DNA of 64,000 nt from a virus. The notes below the pieces were generated by a model. The model was given only the letters and a program-made list of their open reading frames with translations, did no database searches and had not been told where the DNA came from. A program made the translations under genes and the position numbers. The DNA lies in the IMG/VR virus record IMGVR_UViG_3300022227_000002, positions 1 through 64,000 of that record; one strand, 5' to 3'. This document shows, one piece after another, positions 717 to 55,964 of this stretch; the first letter of the stretch is position 1, and each line of letters starts with the position of its first letter.

Positions 717-1082
717 TTAAATTACGTCTACAGTTCTAACTGCTGAAGTAGCCGCATTAGCGTCGCTTAACGTATATTTGAAATTAGCTGTTCCTTCTGT
801 TTGAACAGTTCTGTTACGAAGTTTTGTAACTTGCGTAGCAGTTCCACTATCGTCTTTAGCATTGATTATGAATTCACTCGCCGCTAAAGCACCTTGTGCC
901 TTATTAACTAGAGTCATTACTTCTTCTGCACCATTGGCATTAACAAGAAATTTTCTAGTTGATCTTTGTCTAACGATTGAACCAGCTGTTTGTGACTCCG
1001 CACCAGCGGCTTTTCTCCAAGATGTAACTTGAATATTGCCTGCACCAGTTCCGAAGTTTCTTTTGTTGATAGGTCTTCCCAT
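717..1082 (-). CDS. Small virion-associated protein candidate, paralogue of 258-635
   Basis: 121 residues beginning MGRPINKRNFG, with a basic N-terminal half (SWRKAAG, RQRSTRKF) and a C-terminal beta-like half. It is a paralogue of the adjacent 258-635 product. The start is supported by an AAAGGGAG ribosome site eight bases before the ATG. It is bracketed by a late-type promoter candidate (1160-1167) and a strong terminator (664-692), so it is probably expressed alone and abundantly, as expected for a decoration or other major virion protein. No function is established for the family as far as I know. Confidence 0.75.
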   Translation of the reverse strand: MGRPINKRNFGTGAGNIQVTSWRKAAGAESQTAGSIVRQRSTRKFLVNANGAEEVMTLVNKAQGALAASEFIINAKDDSGTATQVTKLRNRTVQTEGTANFKYTLSDANAATSAVRTVDVI

Positions 1083-1159: not shown

Positions 1160-1167
1160 TATTTATC
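1160..1167 (-). promoter_or_regulatory. Late promoter candidate GATAAATA
   Basis: The minus strand reads GATAAATA, one mismatch from TATAAATA, 78 bases before the start of the 717-1082 gene. It overlaps the TAA stop of the upstream gene (GGA TAA ATA), so part of the match is dictated by the stop codon; hence moderate confidence. Confidence 0.4.
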
Positions 1168-1444
1168 CTTTTGAGAGGGAAGTCAAAAGCTCTATTTTAC
1201 TGAAATATTTTAAGGAATTAATTGCTTGTTGTAGTTTTAGATCAGCACGTTCTTGGTAAATTTGTCTTTTAGTTTGTCTTAACATTATTAATTCATCTAA
1301 TCTTTCATTTAATAATGCATCTACTGTTCGTTCTAATTTTTGAATATCTTTGATAAAAATGCCATGATTTTTCTTCCAAACATCTAGTCTACTTCTGTAT
1401 TCTAAATATTCATTATACAGTTCATTTGAAGTTATTTCTATCAT
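1163..1444 (-). CDS. Small coiled-coil protein of unknown function
   Basis: 93 residues, highly charged and almost entirely predicted helical by eye: heptad-like Leu/Ile spacing from about residue 12 to 85 (e.g. DIQKLERTVDALLNERLDEL). No cysteine, signal peptide or membrane segment. It sits 23 bases after the HemB-like gene on the same strand. I do not recognise a family. Size and helix content would suit a virion accessory or an assembly chaperone, but nothing in the sequence decides this. Confidence 0.65.
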   Translation of the reverse strand: MIEITSNELYNEYLEYRSRLDVWKKNHGIFIKDIQKLERTVDALLNERLDELIMLRQTKRQIYQERADLKLQQAINSLKYFSKIELLTSLSKG

Positions 1445-1467: not shown

Positions 1468-2271
1468 TTATTCTAGCTTATTCACCAGGTTTCTAGCGCC
1501 ATATGTCACTAAAAAGGACGCATTGGCTCTTTTGTATATGGTTGCAATTTCTAATTGATGTTGAATAGTTGGTAGTCCTATATATTCATCTGATACTTGA
1601 AACAATCCAACTTGTTTATATGTTCCTGCTTTAACTAATCCAAATACATCCATACTGTGACTTGCAGGCTTTAATAATAATGCATCTGCACCATCGGCCA
1701 CATATTGATGTGATCGTGATGTCATACCCCATTCATTTTTAACATTTAATTGATAAGTTCTTTCACTAGAAGGTTTACTATCTGATACATCTCTAAATGT
1801 ACTATAAAATACACTTCTCCATTTTACATATGCCATTATTAATTTAGATGTTTCTACTTTAAGATTTTTAACTGTATTTTTTCCCATGTCACTTGGTGCT
1901 AAAACATCTGCTCCTGCAGATTCTAATTGTTTTCCTAAATTTACTAATAATTGTTCACTGGTATCTGGTTTATCTAATACGCAACAATGACCATCTGGTA
2001 GTGTTGAACATAAACATACATCTACACTTAATTGTATTTTTGGGAATTTTGTTTTAATTTTGTTTACAACTTCTGCTTGGAATTTCCAATCAGGTGTCCA
2101 AGTTTTTTTATTAGGTGTTATGAATAATAGAAAATCTTCTAGACCAGAGTCTATGTCTGTTTGAATTCTGTTGTTAATGTCTTTAAGACTATAACTTGAA
2201 TTGTCTGGGCCTAATCCAGCTTCATATGTTTCACCAGACTGGTTGACAAAGATTGGCTGGAGTAAGTCCAT
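1468..2271 (-). CDS. hemB: Porphobilinogen synthase (delta-aminolevulinate dehydratase) homologue
   Basis: 267 residues. HemB condenses two 5-aminolevulinate molecules to porphobilinogen, the second committed step of haem/chlorophyll synthesis. The family's key motifs are all visible: the metal-binding DVCLC-x7-C motif (Cys86, Cys88, Cys96, with canonical spacing), AGADVLAPSDM (119-129), the first active-site lysine in AYVKWRSVFYSTFRD (Lys150), the Schiff-base lysine in GADALLLKPA (Lys201), and FQVSDEY (224-230). The C-terminus (ASFLVTYGAR) matches the end of the barrel. It is shorter than typical HemB (about 320-330): the N-terminal arm, which builds the octamer in cellular enzymes, is mostly missing, and there are internal deletions. 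The gene lies among late minus-strand genes, seven bases after the lipoprotein gene, with codon and base composition like its neighbours. Activity is inferred from the retained residues. Confidence 0.88.
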   Translation of the reverse strand: MDLLQPIFVNQSGETYEAGLGPDNSSYSLKDINNRIQTDIDSGLEDFLLFITPNKKTWTPDWKFQAEVVNKIKTKFPKIQLSVDVCLCSTLPDGHCCVLDKPDTSEQLLVNLGKQLESAGADVLAPSDMGKNTVKNLKVETSKLIMAYVKWRSVFYSTFRDVSDSKPSSERTYQLNVKNEWGMTSRSHQYVADGADALLLKPASHSMDVFGLVKAGTYKQVGLFQVSDEYIGLPTIQHQLEIATIYKRANASFLVTYGARNLVNKLE

Positions 2272-2277
2272 TTATGT

Positions 2278-2469
2278 TTATTCTGCGATTTGATCGCACA
2301 TTTCTTTTGTTGCTTTGTTTCCAGCTTCTTTGTCATAAACCCAAAGGTAAGAATATACAATTTGGTCACCTTTTTGCATACATCTTTTACCTAAATCTAA
2401 TGCAGGATTTTTTACTGAACAAGCTGTTAATACTAACAACGAAAGAAAAAATATAGCTATTGTTTTCAT
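2278..2469 (-). CDS. Small lipoprotein
   Basis: 63 residues. N-terminal Met-Lys, a hydrophobic core (IAIFFLSLLVL) and the lipobox LTAC make a clear signal-peptidase II signal, with lipidation expected on Cys17. The mature part is about 46 residues with two further cysteines (Cys30, Cys58) that could form a disulphide in the periplasm. Small phage lipoproteins act as outer spanins or as superinfection-exclusion factors; no partner inner-membrane spanin overlaps this gene, so neither role is shown. It precedes the HemB gene by seven bases and probably shares its transcript. Confidence 0.75.
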   Translation of the reverse strand: MKTIAIFFLSLLVLTACSVKNPALDLGKRCMQKGDQIVYSYLWVYDKEAGNKATKEMCDQIAE

Positions 2470-2511
2470 ACTAACATTATAGCGTATTTTGGTAAAAAGT
2501 CAAGTTTTGAT

Positions 2512-2979: not shown

Positions 2980-3089
2980 GTAAAGGTATTCTGAAAGATA
3001 AAACTACACATTTTTGACAGACATCAAAAATACTGGTTTAATTTATTAAGTGTGTAGATATTAAAGGTTGTAAGGTAGTTTAATCGTGA

Positions 3090-3117
3090 AAAAAGGCGAC
3101 CCGAAAGCCGCCTTTTC
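3090..3117 (-). terminator. Rho-independent terminator after gp23
   Basis: Minus strand AAAAGGCG...CGCCTTTTTT: an 8-bp perfect stem extended by G-T and C-G pairs around a TTTCGG loop, with a T-run. It lies 23 bases after the gp23 stop and is the natural end of the head-gene transcript. Confidence 0.85.
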
Positions 3118-3139
3118 TCGTATTTTGTTCTACTCGCGA

Positions 3140-4312
3140 TTACGCAAAAGTTACGTTCGCAACAGAGATCTCTCCCAAGTAGTCAGCCGCATTACCTAAA
3201 GATGATGCAGTGTTTGACAATTCTACGTAGCCGTATCTAGTCATAAAAGATACAACTGGTTCGAAAGTACCTGGATCAAGAACAACACCACTTGACATTA
3301 ACGGTATGTATGGGCAGTAGAATGCCGCCGCGTCTGCTTCAGACGAGCCTTTATATCCTACTAATACAGCCGTTCCGTCAGCCGCGTATGTGTCAGCGTA
3401 CACTTTCATTGAACCATTTAAAGTACCAACCATTTTTTGGTTAGTAGGTGCTTCGAAAGTTCCTTCAGTTGTTCTTGCGAACGCTGAAGTTGTTGCTGAT
3501 TGAAGAACTGTTAAAGCGTGAGGGCTTACTACAGTCCAGTTACCAGCACCACGTCTTGTACGTTGAGCTATCTTGTTTGCTACTCTGTTAATCATTACAG
3601 CCAAAGCCGCGTGTTCATCACCAACGAATGTAGCAGTTCCTGATACCGCCGCTTGGTCATATGCTTCTTCTGTAGGTGCTAGAGATCTTAAAGAATTAAT
3701 TACTTCTTGATCAATTTCAGCAGTAATTTCTTGGGCTAATGCCGCCATAATTTCTGCTTCTACGTCTACACCTTGCTGTGCTTGAGCATCTTGAGCAGAT
3801 TCAAAAGTCCATCTAGCTGATAATTTTCTAGTTTTGGCTTCTACAACCTGTTTCAAGATTTGAATTGATAGTCTGTTACCACCAGTGCCTTCTAAGCCGG
3901 CTGTTCCGCCACCTTTTCCAACTGTTTTGTCTCCAGAATAGGCTTGACCTATTTTGAATGGTGATAATGCCTCTTCGCCTGCAGTTACATCATTATCTGT
4001 ATTTGTGGCGTCGTTGGCATCAGCATATCTAACTCTTAGTGTGTGGATTTGACCAACTGGGCCAGTCATCGGTTGAACTCCAACCAATTCGTTAGCTATT
4101 ACAGTCGGCATAACCCGTCTAATCACCGGTAGGATCACTCTGTTTAAAGTAGCCACGTTACCAGCCGAAGTTGCTCCAGCTGTTGCCGCCTCTGCCAAAT
4201 ACTTTCTAGTATTTTCGAGAGTTGCTTCCATTACAGACTTCTTATTGCCTGCTAGGCCTTCAAGTAACGCACTCTTTGTATCCTGCCAGCGTGTTTCTGT
4301 TAGTTCTGACAT
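3140..4312 (-). CDS. 23: Major capsid protein, T4 gp23 type
   Basis: 390 residues forming the icosahedral shell. Recognised from the N-terminal region, the VQPMTGPVGQIHTLRVRYAD block (about 79-98) typical of gp23, and the genome order gp22-gp23. T4 gp21 cuts after Leu/Ile-x-Glu; here residues 39-41 are LAE followed by AATAGAT, the likely maturation site, so the mature protein would be about 349 residues. It is clearly shorter than T4 gp23 (521) because the insertion regions are reduced. The start has an AAAGGAG ribosome site. A strong terminator follows, and scaffold gp22 lies 17 bases upstream. Confidence 0.95.
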   Translation of the reverse strand: MSELTETRWQDTKSALLEGLAGNKKSVMEATLENTRKYLAEAATAGATSAGNVATLNRVILPVIRRVMPTVIANELVGVQPMTGPVGQIHTLRVRYADANDATNTDNDVTAGEEALSPFKIGQAYSGDKTVGKGGGTAGLEGTGGNRLSIQILKQVVEAKTRKLSARWTFESAQDAQAQQGVDVEAEIMAALAQEITAEIDQEVINSLRSLAPTEEAYDQAAVSGTATFVGDEHAALAVMINRVANKIAQRTRRGAGNWTVVSPHALTVLQSATTSAFARTTEGTFEAPTNQKMVGTLNGSMKVYADTYAADGTAVLVGYKGSSEADAAAFYCPYIPLMSSGVVLDPGTFEPVVSFMTRYGYVELSNTASSLGNAADYLGEISVANVTFA

Positions 4313-9892: not shown

Positions 9893-12001
9893 CTACTCAA
9901 TACTCGCCTGTAAATTACCTGTATGATCTTTACCAGAAGTAATTTTTGCAAACCTTGTGTTAAGTTCTAATTCTAATAAAATTTGCATTAGAGTACTATT
10001 TAACGTATCTATCTTATCTCCTGTAGACTTCCCGGAGGCCGATATTGCTCCACCCATATTATTTTTTAGGTTACCGAATGCGTCTCCTAATCCATCTATA
10101 GCATTAGCATACTTTACAATGGCTCCTGTGTCAATCTCTTTCATTCCTTTTTTCAAACCTTTAGCAAATTTTGGCATATCTTTTGCCAAAATGGCAAATT
10201 GACCTTTAACTGCCATACCAGTAACAGCGTTTGTCATATCCCAAATAGAACTTGCAACTTTTTTCATATTGTCTGCATTAATATCATTAAATGTTTGTAA
10301 TCCTGTTCCTACTGATTTTAAACCTTTACCAGCCAACCAAGCACCAGCTCCTACTCCTGCACCAGCTAAGGCGGCCCCTGCACCGACACCAGCTCCGATA
10401 GCCGCTCCACCTGCCGCAACTCGTACTGGTGCCGCTCCGGCAGTTCTCATTGCACCAACCATACCCATACTGCCTACGCCACCGCCACCACCTATCATTC
10501 TCGCGGCGGCTAGTGTTCCTTTGAAAGCTATCATGGCAAGTTTCATTGATCCATATAAAACAATGATACCTCCTAATGCTATACCTAATGCACTGAGTTG
10601 TGATTTAAATTCTGGCATTTCACCTCTAGTTAATTTTTCTATTCCTGTCGCCATGTCGTCTATCCAACCTGACACTTTTTCTATAGCAGGAATTAACATA
10701 TCAATCAACATATTTTTTAATCTTTGCCATGATTGGTTTAAACCAGCCATTGCTTTATCATTAGACTCAACCATTTTTTGTTGTTCAAGTTGTGTTTCAT
10801 TAAATTTTGTACCAAACTCTGTATATCTTGCCATTTGAGTTGTTGCTGATAAAATACTATTTCCTTGAACATCTAAGATAGATGCTAACCATTTATCTTG
10901 TTTGCCTCGTGCTTGGGCCAGTTCAGCTGTTCTTTGTATTTCTTGTGCAAATTGTGATGCATTTATTTCACCATTTCTAGCCTGTTCAGCCATTGCACCT
11001 AAGGCTGGATTCAATAGCATTAAAGATTTTCCAAAATCAGTCATTGGTACTCCGCCTGTAGCAATCAAATCTTTTAATCCTTGTTGCATATCTGCGTCTT
11101 CAATTCCTTGAATTGCTCCTATAACTCCTTTTAAGTTATCATTAGCACCTGCCTCTAAGGCTTGGAATAATCCAGAAAGTCTTTTGCTAGACACATCTTG
11201 TTTCAGTTGTTCGGAAATCATTTTTCTATGTTTACCAGTTATTGTGGCTAATTGATCTAATTGAAGAATATAATTTGTAGTACCGTCAGCTAATTGTCTG
11301 TCGGTCATAGTTTGGGATCTACCCATTCTTGTTTGAATATCTAAATAGTCTCCAAGATATTCTATTTGAGTTTCAAATGCAATACCCAGTCTATTCATTG
11401 CTGGCCCAAATTCTTTTTGAATTATACCACTAATATTTGCAAATCTTTTAGCTCCGGCAGTAACACTTCCACCAAACAATGCAAGAATGTCTGATGAAGA
11501 AGCTACAGCATCTTTAAAAACGTTAAGTCCGACGCCGGCAGTTATTGCCATTTCTCTATATCTTACTAAACTTCCAGAAAATTGTAAACCTGCACCACTT
11601 AATTCATGGAACATAGCAATTTGTTTAGTAAGCTCATCCATGAGTAGTCGAATAGTTGTTCCAAGAGCTTGAAAGGCTATATTAGAATCTCTTGTTGAAG
11701 CTTCTATGGCGTCTCCAAAATCTGATAACCTAGTTCCACTATTAGTGAGCATTCCGCCCCACTGCATAATGCCTTGACCTAGGCTACGAAGTGAATTACC
11801 AAACGTGTCGGCTTGTTCGCCGGCATCGCCTACTGCGTCCCCTAAACCTGATAGATTTTTATTAAACTCAGCAAAATTGACCCCCATCTTTAGAGCAAGT
11901 GCTTTTAATGTGGTTTCTTGAGCCGCACCTACTACTTCTATAGCCTTACCACCCCAACCTTCTGGTAAGTCTGACGGTAATCTGATTTCTACTTTAGCCA
12001 T
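9893..12001 (-). CDS. Tail tape-measure protein candidate
   Basis: 702 residues. The N-terminal 200 are helical and Gly/Ala/Ser-rich with Gln-Ala-Leu heptads; the middle holds an amphipathic helical rod; around 470-560 there are hydrophobic segments (ALGIALGGIIVLYG, then repeated GAGVGAGA), as in tape-measure proteins that insert into the host membrane. The C-terminus is helical. The divergent neighbour is a gp26-like chaperone with a frameshifted partner, and such chaperones normally sit beside the tape measure. T4 gp29, the tape measure, is 590 residues. No lysozyme or peptidase motif is visible. Preceded by a perfect TATAAATA late promoter. Confidence 0.65.
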   Translation of the reverse strand: MAKVEIRLPSDLPEGWGGKAIEVVGAAQETTLKALALKMGVNFAEFNKNLSGLGDAVGDAGEQADTFGNSLRSLGQGIMQWGGMLTNSGTRLSDFGDAIEASTRDSNIAFQALGTTIRLLMDELTKQIAMFHELSGAGLQFSGSLVRYREMAITAGVGLNVFKDAVASSSDILALFGGSVTAGAKRFANISGIIQKEFGPAMNRLGIAFETQIEYLGDYLDIQTRMGRSQTMTDRQLADGTTNYILQLDQLATITGKHRKMISEQLKQDVSSKRLSGLFQALEAGANDNLKGVIGAIQGIEDADMQQGLKDLIATGGVPMTDFGKSLMLLNPALGAMAEQARNGEINASQFAQEIQRTAELAQARGKQDKWLASILDVQGNSILSATTQMARYTEFGTKFNETQLEQQKMVESNDKAMAGLNQSWQRLKNMLIDMLIPAIEKVSGWIDDMATGIEKLTRGEMPEFKSQLSALGIALGGIIVLYGSMKLAMIAFKGTLAAARMIGGGGGVGSMGMVGAMRTAGAAPVRVAAGGAAIGAGVGAGAALAGAGVGAGAWLAGKGLKSVGTGLQTFNDINADNMKKVASSIWDMTNAVTGMAVKGQFAILAKDMPKFAKGLKKGMKEIDTGAIVKYANAIDGLGDAFGNLKNNMGGAISASGKSTGDKIDTLNSTLMQILLELELNTRFAKITSGKDHTGNLQASIE

Positions 12002-12071: not shown

Positions 12072-12079
12072 TATTTATA
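12072..12079 (-). promoter_or_regulatory. Late promoter TATAAATA (minus)
   Basis: Perfect match to the T4 late promoter octamer on the minus strand, 71 bases before the start of the tape-measure candidate at 12001. A gp55 homologue is encoded at 17807-18658. Confidence 0.7.
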
Positions 12080-28000: not shown

Positions 28001-28515
28001 ACAGCACACAACTTAATTCTATAAAATCAATTAGTGATGAAATTATATATCATCCTGTAAAATATAAAATTTTATTTGGGTCTCAAGCTGAAACAGATTT
28101 ACAAGCCTCATTTAAAATTGTTAAAAATGCTTTAGAAGTTACAAATGATAGTGATATTAAAAGTAGAGTACTAACAGCTATTGGTCAATTCTTTGAATTA
28201 GACCATTGGGATTTTGGTGATACATTTTATTTTTCAGAATTGAGTACATATGTAATGAATGAACTAGCTCCAGATATTTCAACTTTCATTATTGTCCCTA
28301 ATGAATCTACACAAAGTTTTGGTAGTCTTTATGAAGTTAAATCAGAAAATGATGAAATCTTTGTTAGTGGGGCAACCTTAGACAATATAGAAATTATAGA
28401 TGCCGTGACGGCGGCTAAAATTAAAGCATCTGGCAAAGTTGTGTCAACTACATCCTCAACCAGTACTGGAGTGACAAGTAATACAACTGGGACCAGCACT
28501 GGAAGTGGATACTAA
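25072..28515 (+). CDS. 6: Baseplate wedge protein, gp6 type, enlarged
   Basis: 1147 residues against 660 in T4. The first 130 (WERVYQSYRNAEFKSYDFDTIRRTLINYIRQNYPEDFNDYIESSEYLALIDMIAFLGQ, here a motif region, about 15-72) and the EIVSTTTENSSI..., AEDYNISPMAVN parts are the gp6/J-like conserved regions of the wedge. The extra length is in inserted beta-rich domains in the middle and C-terminus. The end is Ser/Thr/Gly-rich. Starts at TAATG with the small 24962 gene and ends at TAATG with gp7, so the three are translationally coupled. Confidence 0.9.
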   Translation: MSSTNRQNRLLLAEDWERVYQSYRNAEFKSYDFDTIRRTLINYIRQNYPEDFNDYIESSEYLALIDMIAFLGQNIAYRIDLNARENFIELSERRESVLRLARLLSYNARRNQAANGIIKVETVSTTENIMDSNNLNLSGQTVTWNDPGNVNWYEQFVKVLNSALPVNEKFGKPVKKDTIDGIPTNTYRFASIGTDVPVFNFSKQVDGRNTDFEIVSTTTENSSIIEEVPLAGRAVSMIHRDDGKGSGSNNTGFFMHFRQGIMDVGNFNVTTPSSNQAINIDATNINDTDVWLYSTNANGIETNLWTKLSATEGNNVVYNSTIKSIKNIYSAVTKTDDRVSLQFSDGTFGNLPQGSFKVYYRTSDNRSFRIVPDDMQNVEIDIPYISENGKSETLTMAFSLKYTVDNATISETNDNIRANAPSTYYTQNRMVTAEDYNISPMAVNQEILKVKSVNRVSSGVSRYFDLIDSTGKYSNTNLYGNDGIIYKEELDDLGTFTFTTRTDIEGNLINTIEPGLSTKRVYNFYTDKFPKILLTDINPVWTQVSKATNQSTGNLQDANSTKYQVGTYTASQLKYIEAGALCKFEAPTGYHIMSDGTLMAGAADHAGASTYKWTGVVSVSTDGTTDLADGSGAIKFNDIIPSTAILTQIIPKFNKYLSTDVKTQIIDQIFAYKTFGLRYDLSTRKWKLVDENNLNLFGAFSTGKTGDTSNAQLDASWLLKFTNNGETYTMTSRGMRYVFESDKEIRFFYDSADRNFDYKSGKILQDRISVLSINTAPDVITPMNNEVAFDITKEYRNTDGYVDSKKIELTHYDSDQDGIVDNPTAFDDVVASSVNSSTKYIFQKKYTSNNIEEWRYINATAELIFVRQNNSSIGAYSTYTDDSIIYLIDDDAFKIVNGTNNTLTDTTNYKVHVGRDKLKFQYVHTVDSNTRLDASSTNIMDLYMVTKTFDINFRQWLNGTLTTKPLPPSSDALYTSYSTQLNSIKSISDEIIYHPVKYKILFGSQAETDLQASFKIVKNALEVTNDSDIKSRVLTAIGQFFELDHWDFGDTFYFSELSTYVMNELAPDISTFIIVPNESTQSFGSLYEVKSENDEIFVSGATLDNIEIIDAVTAAKIKASGKVVSTTSSTSTGVTSNTTGTSTGSGY

Positions 28516-31500
28516 TGGCATACGATAAAGATCAAAAAGAATTTCCATTACCCGCAGGAGATGAGTCAAACTCTTTACGCAAGACGTCTGAGTTTTTACC
28601 CAGGTATTTTAGAACACCGGTAAATGAAAAATTCCTTCATAGTACTTTAGATCAATTATTATCTCCTGGATCGGTCCAAAAATTAACTGCTTATTATGGT
28701 AGAAAATCTAGTAAAGCACATACTACTAGTGATGTTTATGTACCTGAAGTTTCAGCTGATAGAGAAAATTACAAATTAGAGCCTTCTACATTAATTAAAG
28801 ATAATTTAGAACAAACAGTATTTCATAAAGATTATATTGACTATATTAATCAAATTAAAGCATTAGGTGGTAATGCAGATGATCATAGTATTCTTAATAA
28901 ACAAGAATTCTATGCTTGGTCTCCACATATTTGTTGGGACAAGTTTTATAATTTTAGAGAATATTATTGGATGCCTTATGGTCCACTAACTATTTCAATT
29001 GCCGGACAACAACAAAATATTACAAGTACCTATACTGTAGAAGTTAAAAATAATGTAGATAGCTATGCGTATTTGTTTACACCTGATGGATTAACTCAAA
29101 ATCCAAATTTAAAATTATATAGAGGTCAAACTTATATTTTTGATGTATCTACAGCTGGTTTACCTTTTACAATTAAAACTGTTAGATCATTAAGTGATGA
29201 TTATCTTTATACTAACGGTGTTTCAGCACAAAAAGTAGAATCAGGATTAGTTGCTTTTCAAGTTCCAGAATCAGCTCCAGATTTATTGTATTATGGTGCA
29301 AGTAATGACATTAATGTATTTGGAGAATTAAGAATTCATAATATAAGTGAAAATACTTACATAAACGTAGATACAGATGTTATAGGTAAAAAAACTTATA
29401 CTCTTACTGATGGAACAGAACTTTCAAATGGAATGAAAGTTCATTTTACTGGTAATGTAACGCCAACAAAATATGCATCGGATGATTGGTATGTTGAAGG
29501 TGTAGGTACTGCTATTCAATTAATAAATGAAAAAGATTTAGAAATTTCAAGCATTTATTCTCAAACTTTTGACGTTCCATTTGATACACAAAAATTTGAC
29601 AGAGTAGGTTTTGGAACAGCAACAACTTATGCAATTGCAAAAGACTATGTTGTAATTAATAAAGGATCTTTAGATAAAAATCCTTGGTCACGTTATAATA
29701 GATGGACTCATAAATCAGTAATAGAATCAAGTGCAAAAGTTAATCAAGAAATCCCTACATTTGATGAAAGTTTAAGAGCTAAACGTCCTGTTATAGAATT
29801 TGAAGCGGGATTAAAATTACATGAATACGGAACTAAAGCTAAAGATAGTATTGACTTAATAGATACAGCAACAACAGATGTAATGTCAACTATTGAAGGT
29901 TCTATAGGATACTATGTAGATGGAACTTTACTTGTAGAAGGTATGCGAGTATTGTTTACTGCTGACACAGATTTAACTGTTAATAATAAAATTTATACTG
30001 TAAAAATTATAACCATAACTTCAAATGGTGTTGCTACAAAACAAATTGCTCTTCAAGAAGCCGCAGATACTACACCAAATACTAATGATGTTGTTTTAAT
30101 TAAAAATGGAACAAAAAACATTGGTAAAATGTATTATTATGATGGTTCAAAATGGAAAATAACACAATCAAAAACTAAAGTAAATCAATCTCCATTATTT
30201 GATTTATTTGATAGTAATGGTATAAGTTATGCAAATACAACAACTTATACAAGTACAAATTTTCCTGGAAATAAAATTTTTAGTTATAAAGAAGGAACAG
30301 GAACTAATGATACAGAATTAGGATTTCCTTTAACATATCAAAGTGTCACTAATATGGGGGACATTGTTTTTAATTTTAATTTAATAAATGAAACATTTTC
30401 TTATCAAACAGCAGATACATTAACAACAATTGATACTAATACGGGTTTGTTAAGAAAATATTCTGATTTAGCTACTTTTAAAGTTATATCTGGCTGGGAA
30501 ACTGCAGATGTTAAAAGCAGTCAAAGAGTTATTAGACAATATGATGTGTCTACGCAAGTAAATGATTTTGCAGTAGATGTATATGAAAGAAGTGGCGATA
30601 TAAATGATTTAAGTGTTAAAGTTTTTGTTAATCATAAAATTAAAAGAGATACAATTGATTATGCTATTAATAGAATTAATGGTATTGCATATATTAGATT
30701 TACAAAAGATTTAATAGCAGGTGATATAGTTATTTTAAAAACTAAAAGTGCTACAAAGAAAAATACAAATGGATATTATGAATTTCCTAAAAATCTTGAA
30801 TCTAATCCATTAAACAACAAAGTATCTACATTTACTTTAGGACAAGTAGGAGATCACGTTAATTCAATTGTAGAAGAAGTTCCAGGATTTATTGGGGTTT
30901 CACCAGGTAGTAATAATTTAAGAGATTTAGGTATTATTTCTAAATATGGTAGAAAATTTTTACAGCATTCAGGATTAACAAATCTTGCTATATATCATCT
31001 TTGCAACAAAGAGAATAATATAGTTAAAGCAATAAGATATTCTCAAAATGAATATGGTAAATTTAAAAGACAATTTATAGAACAAGCTAAAAATTTAGGA
31101 ATGGATGGAACACCAGCTAATATGGTGGATGAAGTTCTTAGAAGAATTAATAAAGATAAAACTAAAAGTATGCCTTTTTATTTTACCGATATGGTGGGTG
31201 CAGGCGGTTCTAAAAAAACATCAATTACAGTAGGAGATCCGGGTAATCCATATTACGCATTAACAAATACATTTTCGTTAAGTGAATTAAGTGATAAGTC
31301 AGTATTAGTTTATAAAAATGATGTACAATTATTACATGATACTGATTATGTGTTTAATAGTGAAGGCTTTATTCAAATAAAAACAACTTTATTAAAAAAT
31401 GATAAACTTGCTATTGTAGAATATGACACAACAAATGGTTCATATATTCCTGCAACTCCAACTAAATTAGGTTTATATCCTAAATCTGTACCTTCAATAT

Positions 31501-34500
31501 ATAGTGATACTACAGCAATAACTCCAATTAATGTAATACAAGGACATGATGGTAGTATAGAAGTAGCTTACAATGATTATAGAGATGATATATTATTAGA
31601 ATTAGAAAAAAGAATTTATAATAATCTTAAAGTTGCTTATGATGATGAAGTATTTGACCTTCATGATTTTATTCCAGGACATTATAGAAAAACAGATTAT
31701 TCTTTAGACGCTATTAACAAGAGTTTATTAGTAGACTTTACTAATTGGTTAAGTTTTGTAGGCAATATTGATTATACAGAAAATACATACCAAACAACAC
31801 ACGGTAGTGATCCTTTTGTTTTTAATTATGGATCTATGTCTAGTTATGATAGTAAACCACTATTAGGTTGGTGGAGAGGAATTTATAAACAAGCATATGA
31901 TACAGATAGACCACATAGTCATCCTTGGGAAATATTGGGTTTTGCAGAAAAACCAACTTGGTTTGATACTGTTTATGGATCGGCTCCTTATACTAGTGAC
32001 AACTTAATTTTATGGCAAGATTTACAAGATGGTGCTATTCGAGAACCTAATAAAAATGTTGTAATTAAAGACAATTATAAAAGACCTGACTTACTTAAAC
32101 ATATACCTGTTAATTCTTTGGGCCTTTTAATAAGTCCACACGATAGTAATTTTTCACAAGAATATGTTGCTCATTTAACTAGAGATCCATTTAAATTTGG
32201 TGATCACGCACCAGTAGAAAATGCATGGCGAAGAAGTTCTGATTATCCTTTTGCTGTTATGACATCTTGGATATTAAATCAACCTAGTCATGCTATTACA
32301 GTAGGTTGGGATAGATCAAGAGTTATAAGAAATACTGCAAAACAACTTGTATATAAAGATACAGGATCAAGAATTAAATTAGCTGATCTTAAATTTCCAA
32401 ATTCTATTAGTGATGAAAATAAAGTTTTAACAGCAGGATTTGTAAATTATATTTACGAATATGTTGAAACAGATTTATTAACAAATTATTCTGATTATAG
32501 AGATAATGTTAAAAAAATTATTAACCAATTAGCATTTAAAGTTCGTGGTTATACTAAAAAAGACAAATTTAAATTACTATTAGATAGTAGAACTCCTTTA
32601 AACACTAGTAACGTGTTTGTTCCTGATGAAAATTATGATGTAATACTTAATACAAGTTCTCCTATAGATGTAGTAACTTATAGTGGAATAATTATAGAAA
32701 AATTAGCGGCGGGATTTACAATTAAAGGTTATGATAAAAATGCTCCAACTTTAAAATATTTTGCACCTATTAAAAAACAAGCCGACCCAGTTATTAGAAT
32801 AGGTGGAATAAGTTCATCTTTTGTAAATTGGGGAGAAAATAAAAGATATGATGTAGGAATGATTGCAAAATTTGGTGATGATTATTATTCTACAAAAGAT
32901 CAACACATATCTAGTACAACATTTGATGGTACAAAATTTATTAAATTACAAGAATTACCTATTGAAGGTGGTGCTTCTGCATACTTACGTAACAATTTCG
33001 AAACTACTATTTCTGAAATTGCATATGGCTCTTTGTTTAGAGAAATTCAAGATGTTTTTGATTTTATTCTTGGTTATGGAAAATACCTTGAGTCTTTAGG
33101 ATTTATATTTGACGAATTTAACAAAGATATAAGAGCAGTTGCTAATTGGCAATTAAGTGCTAAAGAATTTTTATATTGGACAACACAAGGTTGGGCCGAA
33201 GGATCAATAATATCTTTAAGTCCATTAGCTAATAAATTAAAATTAAAAACAAAATATTGTGTGGGAGATAATGTATTTGATAATTTTTATGATTATACAT
33301 TATTTAAAGAAGACGGTACTAAACTTGATAAAGAATTTGTAAGAATAGTAAAACAGTATAATGATTATGAAATAATAACAAAAAATACTGTTAATGGAAT
33401 TTATTATGCAAAAATTCCATTAGTACAAAAAGAACACGTAGTATTAATGGATAATAAAACAATATTCAGCGATATAATTTATGATGTAGAATCTGGATAT
33501 AGACAAGATAGAATAAAAGTTCTTGGTTATGTTACAGCAGATTGGACTGGTGGATTAAGTATACCAGGATTCATTTATGATCAAGCTAATATAATTGAAT
33601 GGTCACCTTATACTGATTATGTGATGAGTGACATTGTAAAACATAAAGAATTTTATTATACTGCTAAAAATAAAATAAAAGGTAGTGCAACGTTTATTGA
33701 TGCAGACTGGGATAGATTAGATAACAAACCTAAACCAGATTTATTACCTAACTTCGAATATAAAACTAATCAATTTGCAGACTTTTTTGATTTAGATACA
33801 GATAATTTTGATTCAACTCAACAAAGAATGGCTCAACATTTAATAGGTTATCAAAAAAGACAATTTTTACAAAATATTATTAATGATGATGTTTCACAAT
33901 ATAAATTTTATCAAGGATACATTCAGGAAAAAGGAACTAAAAATGTATTAACTAAATTATTTGATGCATTATCGTCTGCAGATAAAGAAAGTGTAGACTT
34001 TTTTGAAGAGTGGGCAATTAGAAAAGGACACTATGGTGTAAGTCAAGGATTTGAAGAAGTAGAATATACTTTAGATGATAGTAAATTTAGATCTAATCCA
34101 CAACCTTTTGAATTAACAAATACTATAGATCCTTTAGCTACAGATTTAGTTATTAGACAGAAAGACAGTGATGTATATCTTAAACCTGAAAATTATACGC
34201 ATAAACCTTTCCCAACAAAATATGAAAGTATTCCATATTTGCCAACTGCTGGATATGTAGATCCTAGTGATGTTAAATTTATTGTGGCAAAATATGATGA
34301 CATATTAAATTTAGATGTAGCTGAATTAAAACAAGGACATTATGTATGGGTAGGAAATTATAAAAATGATTGGGAAGTATTTAAATTCTCCAATACTCAA
34401 GCCAAATTAAGTAAAATAGAAAAGTCAGGTGATTTAATTTTAGTTACTACACAAAATACTGCAAATGTAACCGTTGGAGAAGTTTTTGCTATACGAGTAG

Positions 34501-37500
34501 GAACTGTAACACATATTTTAAAAGCAAACAAAATAGAATTAAATGTTATTACTTGTGACAAAAAAGAAGGTGTTACTGCTGTAGATCCTGCAACAGGATA
34601 CATAAGTCAATTTAAAACATCTAGAATTGCAAGTATTACTGATGTAAATGCAAAAATTATGGATTCAGGTCTTCAGGATAATGAAAAATTCTGGGTTGAT
34701 AAAAACGACAATAATAAATGGTCCGTATTGAATAATAGTTTTGTATATAGTTCACATCAAGAAATTTCTAATCCCAACTCTATAGCAAATACAGAGTTTG
34801 GTAAAGTATTAGCTAGTAATGATGCAAATAATATTTTAGTTGTAGGTGCACCAAATGATTCAGACGGTAAAGTTTTTGTTTATAAAAGAGGAGGCGATAA
34901 TTCAACATTTAATTTATTTCAAGTTCTTGAAACACCACCAGAAGATCCTGCGTTAAACAAATTAGATGTATTTGATGCTGGTGCAAAATTTGGATCAAGT
35001 GTAGCAATAAGTCCAGATGGAAAATATATTTTAGTAGGTTCTCCACAAGCCTCTAATGTTAGAACTTATTATAAAGGAAATTATGCTGTAGGAACTCCAT
35101 ATACAATAGAAGATATTATAAAATACAAAGAACAATTGTGGAAAGTTGTAAATCCTATATTACCTGAAGATCCTTCAGTAGATTTTACAACATTTGATAG
35201 TCACGTGTTTGCTAAAGAATCAACATATGATTCTGTAACAGGAAATTATACACCATTAACACAAATAATTTTAGGAAATTATATTTTTACAAATGCTACT
35301 ACAGATCATTTATTAATTAGAGCATCATTAGATCAATACCAAGGTACTAAAATAGGAGACAAATTACAATTAGCTTGGAATGAATGGAATACTTTTGTTC
35401 CTCCATCAGGAACAGCATACGAACCATTTAATGGTTATAATGCTGATGTTACTAATGCACTTCAAGGTGAACAAACAATTACAGAAAAAGTAGATGAAAT
35501 ATTAAGCATAGATCAAACTCTTAATGATTTAACAGTAGGTGATGCTATTGCCACTGACAGTGCAGATGGTACAGTAGCTTGGGTAAACAAAGTAGGTACT
35601 CAGTCTTTAATTTATTTGAAAGATGTTAAAGGTAATTTTTCAGCTACAGGAGATTTATTATTAGGATCTATAAATGTTGGAACATACCAACGTGTATTCC
35701 AAGAAGATATAAACTATTTAGGTGGCTGGTGGAAAATTAGTATTGGTGCAACAGTTAATAATTGGCCATACATTTCAGAAACAAATCCATATCTAGTAAT
35801 ATATGATATTATTAGACAAGGAATTACTAGAACAGCATTATCATATTATAATGCTTTATCCGCAACTCAAAATGCAGTTTTACCAGGTGTTCCAAGAACA
35901 TCTGAAATAGGAATTTTATCTTATTACAAAACTTATAGTATTGCAGGACAACCAGTGTTCCAGGGTTTAGTTACTGATCAAAGATTCTTTTTTAGATTAG
36001 GCACTGCATTTAATACTAAAGTTGCTGGAAATACTATTAATGGTTGGTTAAACACAATAAGAGATTCAAATAATACAGTGTTTGATCCAGGTGTAATGGG
36101 GTTAAACTTTAGCGATATTAACAAAGAACTTACAATAAGCGGTATTTGGAATGGTTACATAACTGTAGATGCTGAAGCAGATAATTTAGGTAACTTTTAT
36201 ATACCAACAGTAGGCAGTACTGTTAGAGATCAAACGACAATGAAAACTGCTGAAGTTACTTTTGTTAAAACAATCGACTTTAACAAAATACAATTATTTT
36301 TAAAAGATGCCACAGGTGCTTTCAAAAAAGGACTTGATGCAGGTGAATCAAGTGACATTTATTTAATAGGTACTCCAGATAGAAAAATAGGAACTTTAAG
36401 AGACGCAAGATTAGATGTTAATGGTCAAAGTGGACCATACTTTGTATTTGACTCTGGTAAAACATTAATTTCAACAACTAATACAGATATAGAAGTAAGA
36501 CATTTTGATAAAGAATATTGGTTCTATGATGAACAAACATTAGATGGTATAGCTAGATCGGCTAACATTCCTGGAGGTACTAATAAAGATTATCTTCAAG
36601 TGTATAATATTTCTGCTGGAGAAGGAACACAAAGCGGTAATGTTAATGAAGGTGCATATTCAGTTTATGAAATAGGAACAAATAATTTATTTGCTCATGC
36701 AGGAACATTTATAGTACCTGATACTAAAGATAATTTAAAAGTAGGTAGTAAAATAGAAATAAGAAAAGTAGGAGATGAAACTGTTGCGTATGTAGGAGCT
36801 TCGGGAGATTTATCATCAGCTACTCCTGGGAAAATTTATTTTGTTAAAAGAAGTACTACTAAAAATTGGGCACTTTCAACAAATCCTTTGTATATGGGCG
36901 TATTTGATCCAGCTCTTTCATATGCTACAGGTGAATATACAATTTATAATTCAGAATTATATAAAGCAAAAACAAATCTTGTTGCCGGTGCATGGAATTC
37001 AAGTTACTGGGAAAAACAAAGTACAGGTACAGATTATTTAGGATATATTCCTAATGATTCAGGAATAACATTAGAAGGAGATTCAACTCTCAATCAAAGT
37101 AATTTAGTAATGTTTGGTGATCAATTTGATGTTAATTCTACAGGAACAATTCTTGTAACTAATTTATTATACAGTACTGATGCACAAAAAGTTGCTGTAT
37201 ATAGATTACAAGAAGGACATTATACATATTCACAAACAATTACATCACCTGAAGATTCATCTCCTAATATAAATTTTGCGAATAGCGTAGCTATTTCAGA
37301 AGATGGAAGTATGTTAGCTATTGGTAGTCCTTTAAAAGACTTTGCTAATGCTGTTGATGCCGGAGTAGTTTATACATATCTACAAGCAAGTGGTGTTTAT
37401 TCATTGAATCAAAATTTAAGAAGTCCTGATAGTGAAAATTCAGAAAACTTTGGACACCAATTAGGATTTGATGGAAATACATTGGCAGTTACAAGTCTTA

Positions 37501-40500
37501 AAGGAGATATAACAGTTACCACTGCATTTGATACAGAAACTACAATATTTGATACTGGAGCAACAACATTTTATAAAGTAATGTCAGATAGTGGTGCAGT
37601 ACATTTATTTGAAAGATCAGGTAATACTTTATTATATGCTGAAAAATTTGTATACACAAATGATGGTGCTGTAGAATTTGGACGTAATACATTAATAAAT
37701 GATAATCATGTTTATATAGGTTTACCTACACTTACATTGGCTAATAGTAATAAAGGAACAGTTGTTAATTTTAGAAAAACTAAAGGCAAATCAAGTTGGA
37801 TGCAAACAGTAGAAGGTGCTGACCATGTAGAAGTTGATAAAATTAAAAGTGTATTCATTTATAACAAGAAAAATAATTCTGTTGTTGCTAATTTAGATTA
37901 TATTGATCCTGTATTAGGAAAAATTGCAGGTACAGCCGAACAAGAATTATATTATAAAACACATTATGATCCAGCAATTTATAATTTAGGAACTTCATCA
38001 GTAACAGTAGATACAAATAATCACTGGGCAGAAGAACAAGTAGGAAGACTTTGGTGGGATTTAAGCACGGTAAGATATTATTATCCTTATCAAGGTAATA
38101 TTATATTCAATAACAATCATTGGAATAAACAATTTATTGGTTCATCTGTAGATGTATATGAATGGGTAGAAACAACATATAAGCCTAGTGTTTGGACTAA
38201 ACTTTCAGATAGTGGTGAAGGATTAGCTTTAGGAGTAAGTGGTGCACCTAAATATGATGATACTGTATATGTTACTAGAAATACTTACGATAAAATTGCT
38301 CAAGCCACAAAACCTAAATATTATTATTGGGTTAAAAATAAACAAACTACACCAGATGTAGAATTTAGAAGTTTAAGTTCGTTAGCAGTTTCACAACTTA
38401 TAGATGATCCTAAAGGACAAGGTTACAAATATATTACGTTCTTTGATTCAAATAAATTTGCGTTAGTTAATTGTGAATCATTGTTATCAAATTCAGATGC
38501 TATACTTAATGTTCGTTATTGGACAATAGAAAATAAAGAACTTAATATCCATAATGAATATCAAGTTATGACTGAAGGGTTGTCTACTAGTAAACCTTCT
38601 TCGGAAATAGAAAAAGTTTGGCATAATAGTTTAATAGGTTATGACGAACAAGGAAATGCTGTACCTGATCCAAATTTAAGTAACAAATTAAAGTATGGAA
38701 CTTTATATAAACCTAGACAAAGTTGGTTTGATAATCATCAAGAAGCATTAAAACAATTAGTAGAAAGAACTAATTCAGTATTGAAACTTAATTTAATTGT
38801 AGATAAAGTAGATTTAACTAACTTATCTAAAGCAGAAATACAACCTACAGCAAATACTAAACTTTTTGATAAAACTGTAGACGTAGTAGGAGATTTAGCT
38901 TTTGTTGGAACAAATACAATTAAAAAAGCAGAGCTATTGCCAACAATTGTAAATGGTAAAATTACTGCTGTAACTATTTTAAGTGGAGGTAAAGGCTATG
39001 CAACTGTACCTACATTTGAAATTTCAGGAGACAGCGGAAGTGGTGCTGTAATAGAATTAACAATTGATGCTTCAGGACAAGTTGATACTGCAATTGTAAA
39101 AGTTAATGGAGAAGGATATACATCAAATACAAAAGTTGTTGTTAGACCTTATAGTGTACTTGTAAAAAGTGATGCAGAGCTTGGAGGTAAATGGGCAATA
39201 TATGGTTACGATACAAGTTTAAGTACTTGGAGTAGAACAGCTTCACAAAAATATAATACTGATCTTTATTGGTCATATATTGATTGGTATGACGTAGGAT
39301 ATAATCAATTTACGTCAATAGATTATACTGTTAGTCAATCATACTTGTTAGATTCTTTAAGTGATGAAATAGGAGATATTGTAAAAATAGAAAATGTAGG
39401 TACAGGTGGTTGGCTATTATTAGAAAAAATAGATAATCAACTTAATGTAGATTATACTGTAAATTATAAAACTATTGGTAGAGAAAATGGAACAATTGCA
39501 TTTAAAAATACTTTATATGATTTTGGTTCTAATACTGTAGGTTATGCGTCAACTAGTTATGATACTGTATTGTATGATAGACAACCTGTTCAAGAAACAA
39601 GAATAATATTAGAAGCTTTAAGAGATAAAATTTTTATTAATGATTTAGAAGTACATTATAATGAACTTTTCTTTGCTAGTTTAAGATATGCATTAAGCGA
39701 AAATAAATTAACAGATTGGGCATTTAAAACAAGTTTCATCAAAATAAAACATAATGCGGGTGATCTTAAACAAAAAGTAACTTATAAAAATGATAATCTT
39801 TCTAATTTCGAAGATTATATTAAAGAAACTAAACCATATAAAACTAATATTAGAGAATATGTAAGTTCTTACGAAAATGTAACGCCATCTAGTTCAGTTA
39901 TAACGGACTTTGATTTACCTGCTAGTTATGATGATCAAAATAAAATAGTACCTAGTTCAGCAAAATTTGTAGGTACTGCTTTAACAGGAACAAGTACAAT
40001 TGTAAATTATCCTGATAAACATTGGTTAGAAAATGTAGGATTTAAAATTACTTCATTTAATATAGGAGATAAAGGTAGTGGTTATATTACGCCACCAGCT
40101 GTTTCAATAACTGGTGGCGGAGGTACTGGTGCTATAGCTCAAGCATATATTAGTAGCGGAAAAGTAACAGCAATTAAAATTGTTAATGAAGGATTAGGAT
40201 ATTTAACAGCGCCTACAGTAACTTTACAAGGAGGAATTAAAGATGTAACTACAGGAACAGTTGCTAAAGTTAGTGCTGTATTAGGTAAGTCTTTAGTTAA
40301 AGTAACTCATCTTACTGTTAAATTTGACAGAACATCTGGAACATATTTAATAACATCATTAGCAAGAACAGAAACGTTTGCAGGAAATAATTCTGTATTA
40401 GATTATTATTTAAAATGGCCGATAGATTTAAGAAGAAATACAATCAAAGTAACTGTTAATAATATTGAAAGTTTATCAAGTGAATACACTTATGTTAATA

Positions 40501-50564: not shown

Positions 50565-50909
50565 ATGGAAGAAATACAACAAAAAACCTTGCGACTTGCG
50601 GATAGATTAAAAGTCCACAATAACCAAACTAGAATACTGAAAGAAAAGTTTGTGGATTCTAATATTCATTTCCTTAAAGGTCATCAATTTACAGTTGATT
50701 TAACATTAATCAACTATTGTAAAGGATTAATAGATTTAAACAAAATTGACGTTATTATATTAGATGATTACAAAATTCCTGTTAAAATAGATAACGTTCA
50801 GGACTTTTTTGACGACATTTCCGACTTATATCAAAGGAATCTTAATTCTTATTGGGTAGAATACAATAAGTTAGAAAAGTCAAAAGGGGAAATATTAAAG
50901 GATGACTAA
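50565..50909 (+). CDS. Unknown protein, first gene of the island
   Basis: 114 residues, no signal or membrane segment. Helix-rich ends with KLRVH-like N-terminus (LADRLKVHNNQTRILKEKF), a central beta-like stretch (IDVIILDDYKIPVKID) and a C-terminal helix (DISDLYQRNLNSYWVEYNKLEKSK). It overlaps the start of the 50902 gene by eight bases and lies right after the promoter at 50522-50550. No family recognised. Confidence 0.6.
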   Translation: MEEIQQKTLRLADRLKVHNNQTRILKEKFVDSNIHFLKGHQFTVDLTLINYCKGLIDLNKIDVIILDDYKIPVKIDNVQDFFDDISDLYQRNLNSYWVEYNKLEKSKGEILKDD

Positions 50910-51759
50910 AGGTGTATTACTATTTGCTCATAACAATAGCCTAATAGATTATGTATCGCAGGCAATCTTTTGTTGTGAACAAATTAAAAAACATTTAAAC
51001 ATACCAGTAAGTCTGGTAACATCAAATAAAGTACCTCCTGATAGTATTTCCTTGTTTGACAAAATCATTCCTATTAAAAACACTAATACAAACCAAACAA
51101 AATCATTTCTAGACGGTTCTACAAACAAATATAATGCTTTATGGCATAACTTTTCAAGGCCTGATTGTTATGATTTAACACCTTACGATGAAACTATTGT
51201 TATGGACACAGATTATATTGTAGGTAATGATCATCTATTAAAATGTTTTCAATCAAATGCGGACTTTTTAATTAATAAAGATGCAGAATATATCAATTAT
51301 CAACATAGAGAGGATTTATTAGATGTAGATGTAAGTGATCCTAGTATTCCTATGTATTGGGCTACTGTATTTTATTTTAAAAAGACTGATAAAATGAAAA
51401 CGTTCTTTGAATTAATTAAACATATTAAAGATAATTGGTCATTTTATAGATTCACATATCAAATAATAGGACAGAATTACAGAAATGATCATTCCTTTAG
51501 TATTGCTATTCATATGTTTAATGATTTTCAAGAAACTAATTGGCCCATGAAGCTACCAAGTAAGTTGTATTACATAACTGATAGAGATGAAGTTATACAT
51601 TTTGATGGAGATTGGGAATTAAAGTTGTCAGTTGATACAAAAGAATATTATCCGTGTAAAATTAATGGTATGAATTTACATATTATGAATAAGTTGGCGT
51701 TGGGACGTGCAATAATGTATGATCGCTGGATTAAGGAGGATCAACATGATAAAAAATAA
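50902..51759 (+). CDS. Putative glycosyltransferase (GT-A-like fold), paralogue of 51746
   Basis: 285 residues. VLLFAHNNSLIDYVSQAIFCCEQIKKHLNIPVSLVTS is a Rossmann-like nucleotide-sugar binding start (about 4-40, described), and MDTDYIVG (residues about 101-108) supplies an Asp-x-Asp metal/sugar-nucleotide motif. The RNDHSFSIAIHMF segment (about 191-203) resembles the later catalytic part of GT-A enzymes. The substrate is unknown. Similar in layout to the following gene (VLDADMLVLENLDH). It overlaps the previous gene by eight bases and the next by 14. Confidence 0.55.
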   Translation: MTKGVLLFAHNNSLIDYVSQAIFCCEQIKKHLNIPVSLVTSNKVPPDSISLFDKIIPIKNTNTNQTKSFLDGSTNKYNALWHNFSRPDCYDLTPYDETIVMDTDYIVGNDHLLKCFQSNADFLINKDAEYINYQHREDLLDVDVSDPSIPMYWATVFYFKKTDKMKTFFELIKHIKDNWSFYRFTYQIIGQNYRNDHSFSIAIHMFNDFQETNWPMKLPSKLYYITDRDEVIHFDGDWELKLSVDTKEYYPCKINGMNLHIMNKLALGRAIMYDRWIKEDQHDKK

Positions 51760-52594
51760 AGGGTATCTTATTTTTGTGCAGTCGAATAAAAGCACAGACT
51801 ACTTTAAACAAGCAGTTGCATTGTCTATGAGTATAAAATTACATAATAAAAATGCAAATGTGTGTTTGATGACTAATATTAATGTACCTGATGAGTTAAA
51901 AAAGTATTTTAATAGTATTATAGGTATACCTGGGGACGATTATGCGGAAGAAAGCATTTGGAAAGTAGAAAATAGGTGTAAAATTTATAATGCATCACCG
52001 TATGATGAAACAATAGTACTAGATGCTGATATGTTGGTCTTAGAAAACCTGGATCACCGGTGGAAATTTTTAGATAACTTTGATTTATACTTTACATCGC
52101 AAGTAAAAACTTATAAAAACAAAATTGCATCATCAGACTTTTATAGAAAAGCATTTACAAAGAATAATTTACCAAATTTATATTGTGGTATGCATTATTT
52201 TAAAAAAACAAAAAATAACTTTAATTTTTTTGCTTTAGTAGAACATATAATAAAAAATTATGACATATATTACAAAAGATATACACCTATGAATACACAA
52301 AGATGGTGTAGTATGGATTTATCGGTAGCAATAGCAAGTCAATTAATTAATAATGCTAATAATATAACTTCTAAAGTAAATTTTTTAACATTTACACATA
52401 TGAAACCAAATATACAAAATTGGAAATACAAACCCAATGCTTGGATGTCTTATGTAAACTCTTATTTTGATGATGACTGTAATTTAAAAATAGGAAATTA
52501 TAAACAAAACGGAATATTTCATTATGTAGATCCTGGATTTTTAACAAATGAACTATTTGATAAGTTGGAGAATAAATGCAAAGACCTGATTTAA
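51746..52594 (+). CDS. Putative glycosyltransferase (GT-A-like fold)
   Basis: 282 residues from the ATG at 51746 (AGGAGGA five bases before; the earlier ATG in frame at 51719 lacks this). Layout as in 50902: an N-terminal Rossmann-like part (GYLIFVQSNKSTDYFKQAVALS), VLDADMLVLE with the Asp-x-Asp motif, and YCGMHYFKK, then a mid-C-terminal SMDLSVAIASQ block. Overlaps both neighbours by 14 and 19 bases. The pair probably arose by duplication and may act on consecutive steps. Confidence 0.55.
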   Translation: MIKNKGYLIFVQSNKSTDYFKQAVALSMSIKLHNKNANVCLMTNINVPDELKKYFNSIIGIPGDDYAEESIWKVENRCKIYNASPYDETIVLDADMLVLENLDHRWKFLDNFDLYFTSQVKTYKNKIASSDFYRKAFTKNNLPNLYCGMHYFKKTKNNFNFFALVEHIIKNYDIYYKRYTPMNTQRWCSMDLSVAIASQLINNANNITSKVNFLTFTHMKPNIQNWKYKPNAWMSYVNSYFDDDCNLKIGNYKQNGIFHYVDPGFLTNELFDKLENKCKDLI

Positions 52595-53175
52595 CATTTA
52601 CGCCTGATATAAAAGAACAAAAATGGTATTTTAATTTTAATAAAGATACTGGACAAGTTCTTAATTGTAGTGTCATTAAAAAAGGAAATTCTGTAGAAGT
52701 TCCAGAGTCTTTAGGACATGATATTGCTAATGGAGTAAAAAATTTATCGCAATACGTTATAATTTTACAAGACGGAAAGTATATTGTTAAATCTAAAACT
52801 GATATGGATGGGATAGCGTATGAAGTTACGTCTTCTAAAAAGACAGAAAATAGAAATGTATACAAAATAGAGTCTAATGATATAAATGATAAAATTTCAT
52901 TTAAACTAGATATGAAAAATAAACAGTGGAATATAGGTATTAATGATAATTTGGGGCAAGAGATACAAAATACTTTAGATATGTCGGAAGATATAGTTTT
53001 AGACTTTTATGTTACTAAAAAAGATGATGCTAATATATTAGATTATATATTACCAGTCAATTTAAACAATTTAATTAAACAAAAAACACTTACAATAGAA
53101 CATAAAAGTAATAATGTCCCTTCTTTGTATTGTAGAAAACTTTATGATTATAGTTATGAGGTAGTTAATGGATAG
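52576..53175 (+). CDS. Unknown protein with internal duplication
   Basis: 199 residues, beta-rich, with two cysteines. Two related halves are visible: FTPDIKEQKWYFNFNKDTGQVL near residue 7 and FKLDMKNKQWNIGINDNLGQEI near residue 114, pointing to an old internal duplication and possibly two similar domains. It overlaps the previous and following genes (19 and eight bases), so it belongs to the operon. Family and function unknown; a carrier, scaffold or binding partner of the enzymes is possible. Confidence 0.55.
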   Translation: MQRPDLTFTPDIKEQKWYFNFNKDTGQVLNCSVIKKGNSVEVPESLGHDIANGVKNLSQYVIILQDGKYIVKSKTDMDGIAYEVTSSKKTENRNVYKIESNDINDKISFKLDMKNKQWNIGINDNLGQEIQNTLDMSEDIVLDFYVTKKDDANILDYILPVNLNNLIKQKTLTIEHKSNNVPSLYCRKLYDYSYEVVNG

Positions 53176-55792: not shown

Positions 55793-55964
55793 GTGTATAG
55801 TGACAAAGGGTAAAAAGGAAGTGGTGTGGCATTATAGTCTACCATATAAAATGATATTAGAAGAAGTTGATGAACACTACAAAGAAGGTGCTGATGCAGT
55901 AGAATTAGAAATGATTACGCAACAAGAGTTTGATGATCTTTTACCAAAGGAAGAAGATGTATAA
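55773..55964 (+). CDS. Small acidic protein between two radical SAM genes
   Basis: 63 residues (MKLDNYKCIVTKGKKEVVWHYS...), with a beta-like N-terminus, a helical middle and an acidic Glu/Asp-rich end (EFDDLLPKEEDV), one cysteine (Cys8). It overlaps both the preceding radical SAM gene (20 bases) and the start of the next (8 bases), so it is always translated with them. A small partner, maturation scaffold or substrate peptide could be imagined; there is no leader/core layout typical of modified peptides, so I claim none. Confidence 0.6.
   Translation: MKLDNYKCIVTKGKKEVVWHYSLPYKMILEEVDEHYKEGADAVELEMITQQEFDDLLPKEEDV

Follow-up and report, generated by a model that had tools for sequence, protein, structure and literature searches.

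The window (the whole 64,000-nucleotide stretch of DNA that was analysed) belongs to a linear viral record of 104.7 kb with a GC content of 31.8% (G000), which may be a fragment, since no end repeats were found. The record encodes gp20, gp21 and gp23. The cultured phages closest to it in gp23 and DNA polymerase are large members of the T4 superfamily; Sinorhizobium phage Phosso is the best match, and Agrobacterium phage Atu_ph07 follows it in the DNA polymerase comparison. Behind gp23 lies a gene for a homologue of HemB (porphobilinogen synthase, PBGS), and the features of this locus are the following.

1163..1444, minus strand: 93-aa gene downstream of hemB, its position conserved
1468..2271, minus strand: arm-less HemB (porphobilinogen synthase) homologue of 267 aa, recognised by Pfam, PDB sequence matches, AlphaFold and Foldseek
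1669..1671, minus strand: K201, the second Schiff-base lysine (K247 in enterobacterial numbering), placed by alignment and invariant in viral HemBs
1822..1824, minus strand: K150, the first Schiff-base lysine (K195 in enterobacterial numbering), placed by alignment and invariant in viral HemBs
1984..2022, minus strand: D84 and the zinc-site cysteines C86, C88 and C96 (DVCLCSTLPDGHC), invariant in 17 distinct viral HemBs and in 38 viral and cellular sequences
2278..2469, minus strand: lipoprotein-like gene of 63 aa, immediately upstream of hemB, with homologues in the same place in most relatives
2476..2503, minus strand: sigma70-type promoter TTGACT-16-TATAAT before lipoprotein-hemB, matching 11/12 consensus positions in the window and 10-12/12 in 13/13 relatives tested
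3088..3119, minus strand: terminator-like hairpin and T run just after gp23, between the virion unit and the hemB unit (-21 kcal/mol, z -3.8)
3140..4312, minus strand: gp23 major capsid protein, the syntenic anchor, assigned by Pfam and synteny
12072..12079, minus strand: TATAAATA, a T4-type late-promoter-like site heading the virion block, from the gene at 9893-12001 to gp23

A preliminary description of this DNA had proposed a 267-residue HemB at 1468-2271, and the ORF was confirmed on the minus strand. Pfam family PF00490 (ALAD) covers its full length with an E-value of 1.5e-40 and 139.8 bits, far above the cut-off of 24.6, and a PDB sequence search returned solved HemB structures as matches. 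An AlphaFold (AF2) monomer predicted from an alignment of 38 relatives has a pLDDT of 91.5 and a pTM of 0.91. Using this model in Foldseek, the top 50 hits were all ALADs, with TM-scores (TMq) up to 0.91; the best PDB folds were the ALADs of human (TM 0.91), yeast, E. coli, Pyrobaculum and Pseudomonas, and the predicted protein has the ALAD TIM-barrel fold. At 126 bits, the window protein does not reach the 297-bit cut-off of the NCBIfam equivalog for porphobilinogen synthase, NF006762, and a cellular sister HemB of 307 aa also falls just under it (278.5 bits).

The oligomerisation arm had been described as missing, which stands, although the loss turned out to be wider. In the window protein the barrel is preceded by only 2 residues, compared with about 25-40 in the usual octamer arm, and the N-terminus pairs beside residue 29 of E. 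coli HemB in the alignment. The codon preceding the hemB ATG is an in-frame TAA; a farther-upstream start that would give back the arm is thereby ruled out, and the arm is genuinely absent. About 30 further residues are gone inside the barrel. Nine of them would follow QVSDEY; the others come from the loop leading into helix 2, part of the loop behind the third cysteine, the segment preceding IMAY, and the flap. A 302-aa reading of HemB in L042-L049 and L057 was discarded in favour of the shared MDLIQPLF start, because it extends the HemB frame back through the overlapping lipoprotein gene.

The alignment also bore out the reported C86, C88, C96, K150, K201, APSDM and QVS-EY motifs and C-terminus. 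Across the 17 distinct viral HemBs, which reach down to 40% identity, D84, C86, C88, C96, S127, K150, Y156, F159, R160, R171, Q174, K201, S227 and Y257 are invariant (17/17). The window protein has both Schiff-base lysines and the equivalents of S165, R205, Q220, S273 and Y312 in enterobacterial numbering. The claim that the catalytic and metal residues are kept is supported, with one departure to be read with caution, the place of the second substrate arginine. In the same numbering this is R216, four residues before Q220; in viral HemBs it is shifted one register to R171, an arginine invariant in all 17 that lies three residues before Q174, i.e. one nearer. The viral flap around R171 is 3-4 residues shorter, and the Y270 position is F in the window protein. 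The allosteric-Mg glutamate (E232, enterobacterial numbering) is replaced by R, T, S or H in viral HemBs and by S or A in a cellular group with a reduced arm (321-aa and 307-aa types), and is E in every ordinary HemB examined.

Searches for relatives found hemB at 97-100% identity in nine IMG/VR contigs. An alignment-based scan identified 32 viral contigs, including copies 58-67% identical, a count that leaves out a 33rd match (L058, 27% identical). A capsid search added two carriers, L194 (~70%) and L254 (~40% identity), and the total including the window's own record is 35 viral contigs at about 40-100% identity. In all 13 relatives compared, hemB lies behind gp23, usually preceded by the small lipoprotein gene and followed by the 93-aa gene. 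Two related small MGRP-start genes in the window, at 258-635 and 717-1082 (both minus strand), are variable among relatives and in some are swapped for another MGRP protein. Because the arm-less gene recurs in more than 30 viral contigs, behind gp23 wherever checked, hemB is neither a chance ORF nor an assembly artefact, and the view that it is phage-encoded, set among phage genes, is upheld.

In a quick gp23 tree, all hemB carriers except the outlier L254 group in a single clade (SH-aLRT 92) that includes no non-carrier, and no hemB lies downstream of gp23 in 36 related contigs whose sequence extends 2.2 kb or more past that gene. Since, L254 apart, the carriers form one gp23 clade and the hemB-free relatives fall outside it, hemB belongs to the core genes of that clade of marine tailed phages. 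Between the two main viral groups HemB is 62-66% identical, compared with 82-86% for gp23. The hemB frame is open in every viral copy read, and well-separated variants have a pS of 0.065-0.106, a pN of 0.005-0.017 and a pN/pS of about 0.07-0.19; viral hemB is under purifying selection. In L053 (5001-5810), the N-terminal 40 residues of HemB and the lipoprotein are near-identical to those of the window and the remainder is nearer the cellular type, which suggests a possible mosaic formed by recombination between phages inside hemB.

By position, hemB does stand among late virion genes, as had been stated, but its promoter and the hairpin suggest a different timing. Five genes of the record, that of DNA polymerase among them, have an intergenic sigma70-type site of this strength immediately before them; as the total number of matches in the record does not clearly exceed chance, the promoter argument is based on position and conservation. 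GC-rich hairpins followed by T runs occur at the same place after gp23 in L036, L041, L042, L050 and L254. The window contains the T4 late motif TATAAATA far less often than expected (1 site, with 17 expected from shuffling), and the record has four sites, every one placed 6-71 bases ahead of a gene; one stands at the head of the virion block. This avoidance suggests a working T4-type late promoter. Given the conserved sigma70-type promoter and the hairpin after gp23, lipoprotein-hemB is probably a separate transcription unit, read early from a host-type promoter and sited among the virion genes. Within the structural region, a single ORF of 4,890 aa spans 28515-43187 of the window (plus strand), and the 702-aa protein at 9893-12001 (minus strand), adjoining gp20, has no match in the GenBank phage collection.

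To place the viral proteins, an alignment query was run against GTDB genomes; a single-protein query against the same bacterial genome contigs gave no match. The best cellular match was a 307-aa HemB of the uncultured alphaproteobacterium AG-914-K13 (40% identity), the remaining cellular matches in that list being at 31% or less. The AG-914-K13 gene sits in a hemC-hemB-hemE-hemH operon with ALAS near by, and the genome has ALAS and ferrochelatase. This 307-aa type is present in about 50 genomes of the same order. In other genomes of that order (L175-L183, as against L059 and L140-L174) HemB is of the ordinary 334-aa kind and lacks Zn cysteines, so that one bacterial order contains two distantly related types, the 334-aa one and the short-armed 307-aa one, which has these cysteines; in the one 334-type genome checked, G118, which may be incomplete, neither ALAS nor ferrochelatase was matched.

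In a careful tree, the viral HemBs form one clade (100/100) within the HemB family, and their sister is the 307-aa cellular type (99/95), at about 38-45% identity. The next branches are the 321-aa and related cellular HemBs, and both the viral clade and its sister persist when L254 and L194 are added. The Pfam profile search and the phylogeny, both put forward as checks in the preliminary description, place the protein in the HemB family. Arm lengths are 35-39 residues in the 334-aa cellular types, 27 in the 321-aa type and 14-18 in the 307-aa type; among the phages, L254 has 13 and the rest have 2. The shortening does not proceed in strict steps, as L186, a relative of the 321-aa type, has an arm of 38. 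Judged from these alignments, arm reduction started in cells and is not a purely viral invention, because the sister HemBs are already short-armed (14-18 residues). Since these short-armed sisters come from haem operons, the missing arm bears on architecture and regulation, not on chemistry. The tree also indicates that the transfer to phages is old and places the donor at the level of a lineage, because the stems are long.

HemC, ALAS and ferrochelatase were not found in the phage records searched, which answers in the negative the earlier suggestion to look for hemA/ALAS or hemC. Pfam scans covered nearly all ORFs of the record, the 4,890-aa one and some small ones excepted, and revealed no other haem, bilin, haem-oxygenase or photosystem family. 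At and around 79552-81100 of the record (minus strand), genes for GTP cyclohydrolase I, a QueE-like radical SAM protein and a PTPS/QueD family protein are likely a 7-deazaguanine (PreQ0-type) pathway. A dense block from 50902-62061 of the window on to 70 kb of the record holds seven radical-SAM proteins (two with SPASM domains) together with glycosyltransferase-like, epimerase and short-chain dehydrogenase genes, perhaps for surface or tail-fibre modification. A ribosomal protein bL12 with both Pfam L12 domains is also phage-encoded (94186-94560 of the record, minus strand; 12690-13061 in L012); as a host marker it was uninformative, having roughly 43-55% identity to most alphaproteobacterial bL12.

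No HemB family was matched in PHROGs, and 50,697 GenBank phage records held no genuine phage HemB. The only hits there, phage-labelled OR851529, OR845814, OR847202, OR848617, OR847151, OR848524, OR844993, CAKLQH020000030 and CAKLQF020000028, carry an ordinary bacterial hemB and were set aside as apparent host contamination. No paper on a phage hemB was found in the literature searched, whose coverage is partial and does not prove absence. The chemistry is already known; the carrier and the architecture are new.

Compared with cellular Zn-type HemB (PF00490; E. coli, human), the phage protein has in common the TIM barrel, the three-cysteine Zn site, both lysines and the substrate-binding residues. 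It differs in lacking the N-terminal arm, the allosteric-Mg glutamate and some 30 internal residues, and in a second arginine shifted by one; identity is 25-33%. The 307-aa HemB of the AG-914-K13 type likewise has the Zn cysteines and has lost the Mg glutamate, and its arm is short (14-18 residues); unlike the phage protein, it is encoded in a cellular hemC-hemB-hemE-hemH operon and has a longer flap, longer internal loops and canonical arginine spacing. Rhodobacter capsulatus PBGS, a metal-independent hexamer, is a precedent for a highly active non-octamer without the allosteric Mg site, although it has the arm and no Zn cysteines, the reverse of the phage HemB (PMC535902). As in the auxiliary metabolic genes of marine T4-like phages, a host-derived enzyme under purifying selection is carried among phage genes in a phage of the T4 superfamily; unlike those known genes, HemB is absent from PHROGs and, genuinely, from the 50,697 GenBank phage records.

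From these data we infer the activity, oligomeric state, timing, host and benefit of the phage HemB. On balance we favour, with reasonable though not strong confidence, an active, non-octameric Zn porphobilinogen synthase, captured once and expressed early, that would supplement host tetrapyrrole synthesis. A marine alphaproteobacterial lineage with a degenerate arm and Mg2+ site would have supplied the gene in a single ancient transfer, after which it would have joined the core genes of one phage clade, transcribed early from a host-type promoter. The protein would be a catalytically competent Zn-type enzyme converting 5-aminolevulinate to porphobilinogen (PBG), as a dimer or otherwise small assembly without the Mg2+- and arm-controlled octamer-hexamer switch. 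Because HemC, ALAS and ferrochelatase were not found in the phage records searched, its PBG would feed the host HemC-HemE-HemH, so that supply of haem or another tetrapyrrole would go on during infection. Against this explanation, HemB is usually not considered rate-limiting for haem. The shifted R216, the short flap, the Y270-to-F change and the sub-cut-off NF006762 score were also counted against an active enzyme. Each PBGS protomer has a complete active site, and in known enzymes secure lid closure needs contacts present only in the octamer (PMC7729013); the arm-less enzyme may for that reason be weak. In R. capsulatus the hexamer is highly active and a smaller form is less active, not inactive (PMC535902).

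The fold may instead have been recruited elsewhere, for a different substrate, for a metal- or ALA-binding role, or as a virion-associated protein. The location of its gene, flanked in all relatives checked by gp23 and other virion-type genes, its faster evolution than gp23 between the two main groups and the failure to find other haem genes in the phages searched would fit, but substrate-binding and Schiff-base residues are all invariant and the host-type promoter sets hemB apart from the virion block, which makes such a role unlikely. Quite improbable, in our estimate, is a partner or modulator that forms mixed assemblies with the short-arm HemB of the host and releases or locks an activity state. 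PBGS assemblies do dissociate and re-form (PMC7729013, PMC535902), the arm and Mg2+ site, which govern assembly, are the parts lost from a kept barrel, and the cellular sister is short-armed too. A modulator would have no need of the catalytic residues, however, and these are kept in 17/17 viral proteins; a shared interface is also less likely because phage and sister are only about 38-45% identical. That the arm and some 30 internal residues have gone might point to a functionless passenger gene in decay, but the low pN/pS, the open frame in all viral copies read and the conserved promoter and position make this very doubtful. Although cyanophages have other tetrapyrrole genes, the cyanobacterial chlorophyll or bilin role raised in the preliminary description is scarcely credible, as the closest HemBs come from marine alphaproteobacteria with haem operons, phages of Sinorhizobium and Agrobacterium are among the cultured phages nearest in gp23 and polymerase, and no bilin, haem-oxygenase or photosystem family appeared in the Pfam scans of nearly all ORFs.

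With an active, non-octameric synthase as the preferred reading, we tentatively picture a HemB lineage that began in streamlined marine alphaproteobacteria and was completed in phages, yielding a minimal, always-on PBG synthase as an early phage gene. Such a lineage would have dropped the arm and the Mg2+ site, and hence the octamer-hexamer switch too. HemB is a textbook example of quaternary structure gating activity, in which the arm and the octamer are held necessary for lid closure. The natural series of arms (about 38, 27, 18, 13 and 2 residues) ends at an intact viral active site, and the lid-closure claim is therefore directly testable. For marine phages, the finding would add a step of the haem pathway to their gene repertoire, in a clade whose hemB derives from streamlined alphaproteobacteria of an abundant type.
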